A stretch of DNA of 8,924 nt from Chlamydiota bacterium. Lineage in GTDB: Bacteria > Auribacterota > Tritonobacteria > UBA1439. The position numbers were made by a program, and so were the translations under genes. How positions within the stretch are numbered: position 1 is the stretch's first letter; the number at the start of each line of letters is the position of its first letter. The notes under the pieces are model-generated. The model saw nothing but the letters and a program-made list of their open reading frames with translations, was not told the DNA's origin and did no database searches. Shown piece by piece: positions 1 to 1,552 of this stretch. The DNA is taken from contig JAAYCL010000010.1 of NCBI GenBank assembly GCA_012729785.1, forward strand, positions 1 to 8,924, given 5' to 3'.

Positions 1-53
1 CCCTGGCCGGCTTGAGCGGAGCCCTTGAAGGCTCAACCTCAAGCCGGCCAGGG
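1..53. repeat. Large imperfect hairpin (16-bp inverted repeat)
   Basis: Bases 1-16 are the exact reverse complement of 38-53. Inside them a second 5-bp stem (19-23 with 30-34) closes a 6-base loop. No T-run follows on the + strand, so it is not a standard intrinsic terminator in that direction. The other side lies outside the window, so a terminator for a gene arriving from the left or a dispersed palindromic repeat are both possible. No second copy is present in the window. Confidence 0.6.
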
Positions 54-974: not shown

Positions 975-1012
975 GGGAAGGTGGCGGCGTGCGGCCTATC
1001 GGGCACGACTTG
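975..1012 (+). pseudogene. Decayed tRNA-Ser 5' half (older copy)
   Basis: A gap-free alignment to 1462-1499 of tRNA-Ser(CGA) gives 29 of 38 matching positions. It starts at the exact mature 5' end and stops after the second anticodon base, as does the better copy at 1077-1115. A hairpin (1013-1031) and then AAATCGTA follow, the same order as in that copy. No 3' half follows, so it cannot be a functional tRNA. I read it as the first tRNA 5' half displaced by an insertion and then left to mutate. Confidence 0.65.
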
Positions 1013-1039
1013 CCCGCCGAATAGCGGGGCGAAATCGTA
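1013..1039. repeat. Hairpin insert, single-unit older copy
   Basis: A 19-base unit (CCCGCC, loop GAATA, GCGGGGCG) is followed by AAATCGTA. It is a slightly shortened version of the 21-base unit found twice at 1116-1157, and it lies at the same position relative to the tRNA-like sequence. The 16 bases 1024-1039 are identical to 1150-1165. Confidence 0.7.
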
Positions 1040-1076
1040 TCCGCGGTCATTCAGTTCCGGGCGAAGTAACAAGATC

Positions 1077-1115
1077 TGGAGAGGTGGCAGAGTCCGGTTT
1101 ATCGCGCACGACTCG
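1077..1115 (+). pseudogene. tRNA-Ser(CGA) 5' half, exact duplicate
   Basis: These 39 bases are identical to 1461-1499: one base of leader plus the first 38 bases of the intact tRNA-Ser(CGA), including the acceptor strand, D arm, 5' anticodon strand and first two anticodon bases. The 42-base insert then breaks the match, after which AAATCGT (1158-1164) matches tRNA bases 1500-1506. Homology ends there, so there is no variable arm, T arm or acceptor 3' strand. The perfect identity suggests a recent event. Confidence 0.9.
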
Positions 1116-1157
1116 CCCCGCCATGAAGGCGGGGCGCCCCGCCTTTATGGCGGGGCG
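1114..1157. repeat. Tandem double hairpin inserted in the tRNA-like anticodon loop
   Basis: Two 21-base units stand in tandem (1116-1136 and 1137-1157). Each reads CCCCGCC, a 5-base loop (ATGAA, then TTTAT), GGCGGGGCG. Each can form a perfect 9-bp stem (1114-1122/1128-1136 and 1135-1143/1149-1157), and the two units are also nearly inverted copies of each other. The insert lies between the second and third anticodon bases of the tRNA-like sequence. The CG on both sides could be a 2-base target duplication. Confidence 0.8.
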
Positions 1158-1189
1158 AAATCGTAGTGTTGGGTAGCACGGGTAATGAC

Positions 1190-1459
1190 ATGTATTATGT
1201 CTATATCCTGAAAATGGGTAATGAACAGCTCTATACGGGATTCACTAAAAATCTGAAGCGAAGGATGCAGGAGCACAACGGCGGCAAGGTTGACTCCACG
1301 AAAAGAAGGTTGCCCCTTACACTAATTCATTACGAGGCATATCTGAAAGAGAGCGATGCACGTAGAAGAGAGGAATTTCTAAAGAAATCTCAGGGTAAGA
1401 GATACCTGAAGCTGCAAATCCGTGATTGTTTAGCTGAATTGGGTTCGAGGGCTGAATAA
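1190..1459 (+). CDS. GIY-YIG family endonuclease, UPF0213-like
   Basis: This is an 89-aa single-domain GIY-YIG nuclease of the small stand-alone type (UPF0213/YhbQ-like). The motif residues are VYI (4-6) and YTG (15-17), followed by the conserved LKRRMQEHN (23-30) with the catalytic-type Arg, and ARRREEFLK (57-65) with the Glu expected to bind the metal. GKVDSTKRRLP and HYEAY are also typical. No DNA-binding extension is present. ATG 1190 is chosen because MYYVYILK is the usual family start; GTG 1166 would add 8 unrelated residues. No clear ribosome binding site is visible. The stop codon ends two bases before tRNA-Ser(CGA). Base composition is far lower in GC than the neighbours. Family members are known or presumed DNA nucleases; a homing role here is inferred from the flanking tRNA repeats. 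Confidence 0.9.
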   Translation: MYYVYILKMGNEQLYTGFTKNLKRRMQEHNGGKVDSTKRRLPLTLIHYEAYLKESDARRREEFLKKSQGKRYLKLQIRDCLAELGSRAE

Positions 1460-1461
1460 AT

Positions 1462-1552
1462 GGAGAGGTGGCAGAGTCCGGTTTATCGCGCACGACTCGA
1501 AATCGTGTAGACCTTAACGGTCTCGTGGGTTCAAATCCCACCCTCTCCGCCA
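1462..1552 (+). tRNA. tRNA-Ser(CGA)
   Basis: This is a complete class II serine tRNA. Acceptor strands GGAGAGG (1462-1468) and CCTCTCC (1542-1548) pair, the discriminator is G1549, and CCA is encoded at 1550-1552. Anticodon stem 1491-1495/1503-1507 closes loop CTCGAAA with anticodon CGA at 1498-1500, which reads UCG. In the usual numbering the D stem has an A12-C23 mismatch that the other two serine tRNAs here lack. Both bases lie in the 5' half that may have been brought in by the upstream element. The gene begins 2 bases after the GIY-YIG stop codon and is followed 38 bases later by the next coding region. Confidence 0.95.

Follow-up and report, generated by a model that had tools for sequence, protein, structure and literature searches.

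Integrative elements in tRNA genes are integrase-based, usually restore the 3′ end of the gene that they occupy and are kilobases long. Mobile ORFs (mORFs) of fungal mitochondria follow a strategy without splicing, in which the inserted endonuclease gene brings along a substitute, often foreign, end for the target gene and the displaced native end persists as a remnant on the far side, as described for Allomyces atp6 and for Glomus atp6, atp9, cox2 and nad3 (PMC3630166). According to the available text of that report, the mORF endonucleases are mostly of the LAGLIDADG type, with a GIY-YIG enzyme in atp9. A 2024 report located GIY-YIG genes in non-intron insertions of CPR rRNA genes, mostly at the tops or bases of stem-loops; its available portion deals with rRNA only, judges the GIY-YIG genes to be outside homing and does not mention tRNA (PMC11270868). 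REP and REPIN sequences are short inverted hairpin pairs with non-autonomous copies, and their partner RAYT is an HUH Y1 transposase (PMC2817692, PMC8266576). UPF0213-type proteins, known as stand-alone domains, have been predicted to act in repair, and two of them, 1zg2 and 1ywl, were grouped with bacterial Slx1 proteins; no mobile element is described there (PMC1564403).

Here we describe a bacterial locus that we interpret, with a probability of about 0.6, as a minimal non-splicing mobile element that would invade loops of structured-RNA genes, carry a replacement piece and probably be driven by an Slx1-like nuclease. To judge from the available text on mORFs, theirs is the closest known strategy. 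As in mORFs, an endonuclease gene adjoins a duplicated part of the target gene, and the displaced native part lies across it. Unlike mORFs, which occupy fungal mitochondrial protein genes, the insertions described here are in bacterial tRNA and other structured-RNA genes, and a hairpin doublet marks the junction and also occurs alone; a doublet at the mORF junction is not mentioned in that text (PMC3630166).

An interrupted tRNA-Ser(CGA) gene beside an intact copy

The window, i.e. the whole stretch of DNA analysed, is an entire contig of 8,924 bp (C10) from a 2.59 Mb genome in 45 contigs. The order of neighbours, tRNA-Ser(GCT), a DUF2007 gene, tRNA-Ser(CGA), tRNA-Arg(ACG) and tRNA-Ser(GGA), is the same as in related genomes. 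The sequence-only reading had proposed that a GIY-YIG cassette between 39-bp direct repeats was inserted in the anticodon loop of tRNA-Ser(CGA). The two repeats (1077–1115 and 1461–1499) are exactly identical and extension fails at both ends; each consists of one T followed by nucleotides 1–38 of tRNA-Ser(CGA), placing the onset one base ahead of the mature 5′ end, as had been stated. When 1115 is joined to 1500, which omits a unit of 384 bp, the result matches the intact tRNA at 1462–1552 letter for letter.

All features of the locus lie on the + strand. The first repeat is the outer remnant of the tRNA (1077–1115, from repeat comparison and fragment search). It is followed by hairpin 1, CCCCGCCATGAAGGCGGGG (1116–1134, from repeat/hairpin analysis and folding), and hairpin 2, CCCCGCCTTTATGGCGGGG (1137–1155, from the same analyses and a pattern scan), which is nearly the reverse complement of hairpin 1; a CG stands after each. 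The insert expected between the repeats is thus present, although as a REPIN-like double hairpin (1116–1155) instead of a single one. Beyond the doublet, the tRNA sequence picks up again for about 8 nt with the short arm AAATCGTA (1158–1165, from sequence and folding), which comprises the remaining anticodon loop and the 3′ strand of the stem, so that the doublet lies within an otherwise complete anticodon arm. Folded as a single strand, arm and doublet form one long hairpin (−30.9 kcal/mol, z −7.3), and the equivalent sequences of two other loci (L043, L107) a three-way junction. The gap before the intact tRNA is occupied by the GIY-YIG gene (1190–1459, 89 aa, from domain match, structure comparison and alignment), for which ATG 1190 is the best start. 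It is as poor in GC as had been noted (0.426 for the ORF against 0.661 for the whole window) and matches PF01541 with an E-value of 1.2e-14. The complete tRNA-Ser(CGA) at 1462–1552 (tRNA detection, repeat comparison) would, if an insertion took place, combine a 5′ half from the unit with the 3′ half of the original gene. The postulated lack of an integrase also holds, as the 384-bp unit carries the GIY-YIG gene as its sole gene and no recombinase was recognised among the window ORFs. Like the integrative elements, the unit occupies a tRNA gene and restores it; unlike integrase-borne tRNA islands, it contains no tyrosine or serine recombinase.

In one genome of the same genus (G001) and one of the same family (G003), the same neighbourhood contains an uninterrupted tRNA-Ser(CGA) without the insert, and no GIY-YIG gene was found at the corresponding site. 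These empty sites, together with an identical break (CTCG^AAA) in homologs from other phyla, support an anticodon-loop insertion with restoration of the tRNA. A further related genome (G004) has a truncated GIY-YIG gene, 70% identical, 25 bp ahead of the same tRNA. The window itself holds a third, decayed unit of the same design at 974–1039: an older tRNA-Ser(CGA) 5′ half (974–1012), 74% identical to the intact half, and a decayed hairpin followed by AAATCGTA (1013–1039, from sequence and alignment). Because position 974 corresponds approximately to the start of the tRNA in related genomes, insertion seems to have taken place at least twice, first at 974 and more recently beside the working tRNA. 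The 5′ half is identical in the relatives, so import and local duplication look alike in the window.

The encoded protein is of the bacterial Slx1-like type

The profile of the encoded protein matched 1zg2 (1.6e-15) and 1ywl (1.8e-13) in the PDB, with SLX1 next. Foldseek comparison of its AlphaFold model (pLDDT 90.8) likewise ranked 1zg2, 1ywl and Slx1 best, and both sequence and fold gave the order UPF0213 proteins, Slx1, I-TevI. With its GIY-YIG domain, single-domain size and nearest solved relatives 1zg2 and 1ywl, the protein is of the bacterial Slx1-like/UPF0213 type, not of the I-TevI type, and belongs to the same family as those stand-alone domains. Tyr5, Tyr15, Arg25, His29 and Glu61 are invariant across 25 aligned relatives. 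Slx1 is a structure-specific nuclease that acts on branched DNA. This activity suggests, without proving it, that the folded arm is the substrate, and the Slx1-like nuclease is the likely driver of the element. An NCBIfam search returned no family for the window protein. PHROGs and PADLOC gave no match and viral contigs one match only, by which tests a phage gene or a known defence gene was rejected.

A widespread class of GIY-YIG loci associated with tRNA genes

We collected 214 distinct GIY-YIG loci, drawing on the phylum of the window, Patescibacteria and 80 named genome contigs that span many phyla. A tRNA (117 loci) or tmRNA (4 loci) was located within 300 bp in 121 of them, on the same strand as the GIY-YIG gene in all 121. 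The density of tRNA/tmRNA genes per flank was 0.217 within the first 100 bp and about 0.003 past 700 bp. The remaining 93 loci lack a nearby tRNA or tmRNA, which counts against a mobile element of the proposed kind; an Rfam search of some loci without an adjacent tRNA found a tmRNA (L076), an RNase P RNA (L151), a group I intron (L101) and a distant tRNA (L106). GIY-YIG genes are located downstream of tmRNA on the same strand at L076, L231, L244 and L265, with hairpins in between, and downstream of RNase P RNA on the same strand at L151.

In 47 of the 117 tRNA-adjacent loci, 14 nt or more of the adjacent tRNA recurred exactly elsewhere nearby, compared with 1 of 585 controls with other isotypes; with fragments of at least 18 nt, the numbers were 39 and 0. 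Relatives of the window protein are therefore strongly associated with tRNA fragments, as the sequence-only reading required. The fragment was across the GIY-YIG gene from the intact tRNA in 33/38 loci with the tRNA downstream and 8/9 with the tRNA upstream. However, 44 of the 53 loci with an upstream tRNA had no tRNA fragment, which again speaks against the proposed element. The same layout recurs in many independent assemblies, including contigs of at least 0.7 Mb (L203, L297), which argues against chance and against the possibility, raised earlier, that the 39-bp duplication is an assembly artefact. The locus is a member of a widespread and apparently undescribed class.

The four nearest homologs, with 60–70% identity, are from Cloacimonadota (L072), Lentisphaerae (L073), Planctomycetota (L074) and an unclassified bacterium (L075), and all four are at tRNA-Ser(CGA). 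The break of the window is also found upstream in L072, L073 and L075. L074 has a T-loop junction downstream and, upstream at the contig end, a doublet followed by AAAACC. On the GIY-YIG tree, tRNA isotypes were clustered, with 67 changes compared with a mean of 84 after shuffling and none of 300 shuffles as low; having few columns and many open forks, the tree serves as a test of clustering, not of detailed history.

Breaks in loops and restored ends

The remnant starts at mature nucleotide 1 or 2 in 31 of 43 loci with a downstream tRNA and reaches the 3′ end of the tRNA in 9/9 with an upstream tRNA. The replacement 5′ half of the earlier proposal therefore holds as a restoration, but not as a rule about the 5′ end, because either end of the gene can be the one restored. 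In L203, L222, L229 and L187, the remnant differs markedly from the intact tRNA, with identities of 27/36 (L222, L229) and 29/36 (L203); 65/70 was also seen, and in the window both halves are identical. Such differences indicate that the intact copy may be a foreign replacement.

Among 32 clean breaks, 26 fall in a loop, with about 11 expected: the T-loop accounts for 10, the anticodon loop for 9 and the D-loop for 7. In most of the other six, the anticodon arm is replaced by a hairpin. In both the T-loop (TTCG^AA) and the anticodon loop of Ser(CGA) (CTCG^AA), the break comes after nucleotide 4 of 7, give or take the CG shared with the doublet, so the doublet is at the tip of an otherwise complete arm. 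Targeting of the anticodon loop is thus correct for the window but too narrow in general, since the insertions are in loops in genes for structured RNAs: the T, anticodon and D loops of tRNA, RNase P RNA and 23S rRNA. Taken as a whole, the sequence-only reading stands in part; it was to be given up if all related genomes lacked an empty site, if relatives of the protein had no association with tRNA halves or if the duplication was an artefact, and none of these was found.

Hairpin doublets without a nuclease gene

We also scanned 11 whole genomes for the doublet pattern without using the GIY-YIG sequence. True palindromic doublets were found only in tRNA arms, rnpB and 23S rRNA; as the genomes were mostly picked for holding GIY-YIG loci, the scan gives the location of doublets, not their frequency. 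Our doublet counts leave out a simple stem-and-CG pattern, which was too strict. Doublets without a neighbouring GIY-YIG gene are located at tRNA-Glu (L287), tRNA-Arg (L288) and tRNA-Val (L290/L291). The last are tandem 97-bp units of tRNA-Val 3′ part, flank, short arm and doublet at the ends of contigs C20 and C48 of G009, both of which break inside the array. Some flank is also repeated in L287 and L290. Two tandem doublet units follow tRNA-Ala(TGC) between 16S and 23S in an rRNA operon (L302, 1384–1626), and one doublet is within the 5′ part of a 23S rRNA gene (L289, 1485–1527). Stacked copies occur in L073, L004, L290/L291 and L302.

The genome of the window and G001 have a doublet in rnpB at GAGACG^AGTC (G000:C14:57584-57626; L169, about 1481–1523), of which hairpin 2 is the exact reverse complement of hairpin 1 in the window. 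The rnpB site is empty in G003 and G004, which speaks against native hairpins of that RNase P region, and G002 has a different, longer insert near the same place. G001, despite the rnpB doublet, has only a weak GIY-YIG match, a finding that counts against the nuclease as the mover. We then searched 379 Patescibacteria genomes for the conserved centres GTCATNCGAC/GTCGNATGAC. This second scan, which gave no control matches, detected 15 sites: 11 in tRNA arms beside an intact tRNA, 1 in RNase P RNA and 3 unassigned or imperfect. A GIY-YIG match at E ≤ 1e-16 was present in 5 of 6 genomes with true doublets, compared with 103/379 overall. The doublets resemble REP/REPIN sequences as short inverted hairpin pairs with non-autonomous copies and one small nuclease candidate. 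Unlike in REPIN/RAYT systems, the linked gene is a GIY-YIG gene, and the copies, low in number, lie almost exclusively in structured-RNA genes.

Discussion

The sequence shows a tRNA interrupted in a loop, a doublet at the break within an otherwise complete arm, and an intact tRNA beyond the nuclease gene. From the split targets, doublets at the break, replacement pieces, stacked copies, solo doublets and empty sites, we infer mobility and cleavage. The constant part of the element would be the short hairpin doublet; in the presumed autonomous form, it would be joined by a single small gene for an Slx1-like GIY-YIG nuclease and by a replacement tRNA piece. The nuclease would cut or nick the folded arm, or the matching duplex, near the centre of the loop; with the sequence of the tRNA itself providing the homology, repair against the element, or its integration, could then produce a restored tRNA and a single junction that carries the doublet. 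Solo doublets may be non-autonomous copies moved in trans. The restored tRNA retains the presumed target, so further rounds could stack beside it, as at 974 and 1077 in the window, even though a retained target in itself counts against this mechanism. Since the tRNA supplies both homology arms, such an element would be able to cross phyla. The stronger proposal, a new class of bacterial mobile elements in which the doublet enters loops of tRNA, RNase P and rRNA genes by means of a structure-specific Slx1-like GIY-YIG nuclease while a spare gene piece keeps the host alive, is in our view an even bet.

A classical homing endonuclease would recognise a duplex site in the tRNA gene and spread by gene conversion, with the hairpins merely protective or transcriptional. 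The clustering of isotypes on the tree and the break TCG^AA common to the Ser(CGA) anticodon loop and T-loops are compatible with homing. It is nevertheless unlikely, as solo doublets exist without the gene, the UPF0213 and Slx1 structures are nearer than I-TevI, and breaks affect three kinds of tRNA loop as well as other RNA genes. Alternatively, REPIN-like hairpins might be moved by another enzyme or by errors of replication, and the GIY-YIG gene might be a passenger, or a repair gene that is tolerated near hairpin-rich tRNAs; this, too, seems rather improbable. The strand agreement in 121/121 loci, the fragment on the far side of the gene, the clustered isotypes and the excess of GIY-YIG genes in Patescibacteria with true doublets speak against a passenger, even though doublets without a linked gene, the many GIY-YIG loci without tRNA and the predicted repair function of UPF0213-type proteins (PMC1564403) agree with one.

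The identical 5′ halves in the window and the repeated flanks in L287 and L290 might also result if the tRNA had been duplicated locally in tandem, with later decay and hairpins grown by chance, and no mobile element had been involved. The repeat, however, begins at mature nucleotide 1 with no more than one base of upstream flank, remnant and intact tRNA differ strongly at several loci, and rnpB has an empty site; the recurrence of the same break and doublet in different phyla already disfavours duplication, which we regard as very improbable. The probability that the locus is what remains of a group I intron or an integrase-borne island is negligible. Both kinds use tRNA genes, and a group I intron is in the neighbourhood of L101, but the window insert contains no Rfam intron, no recombinase was recognised among the window ORFs and the unit is merely 384 bp long. 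Unlike a group I intron with a homing endonuclease, it has no ribozyme core. With group I introns, integrase islands and REPIN/RAYT, the locus has isolated traits in common; it lacks a defining component of the first two.

Within the coverage of our literature search, which had preprints and most subscription journals outside it, there was no description of tRNA-linked GIY-YIG elements. Based on this and on the comparisons with known systems, the class is apparently new, and would be a variant only if fungal mORFs were considered the same kind. The GIY-YIG genes in CPR rRNA likewise reside in non-intron inserts of structured-RNA genes, whereas the available text of that study gives no link to doublets or gene restoration (PMC11270868); they may be the rRNA branch of the present class. 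If the loci are indeed mobile elements driven by the nuclease, this would explain the small GIY-YIG genes beside tRNAs in CPR, Omnitrophota, Planctomycetota and related bacteria. It would mean a route through essential RNA genes without splicing or an integrase, and a natural parallel to cleave-and-rescue gene drives. It would also suggest that some tRNA genes have been replaced by foreign copies through such elements, and the Slx1-like family would gain a testable substrate, stem-loop DNA with a doublet.

Two minor observations concern single loci. L006 has, at about 1000–1280, a tRNA-Asn-like 3′ part, with intron-like sequence before it and several hairpins and a GIY-YIG gene after it. At the contig end of the window (1–53), there is a 16-bp perfect inverted repeat with a gap of 21 nt.
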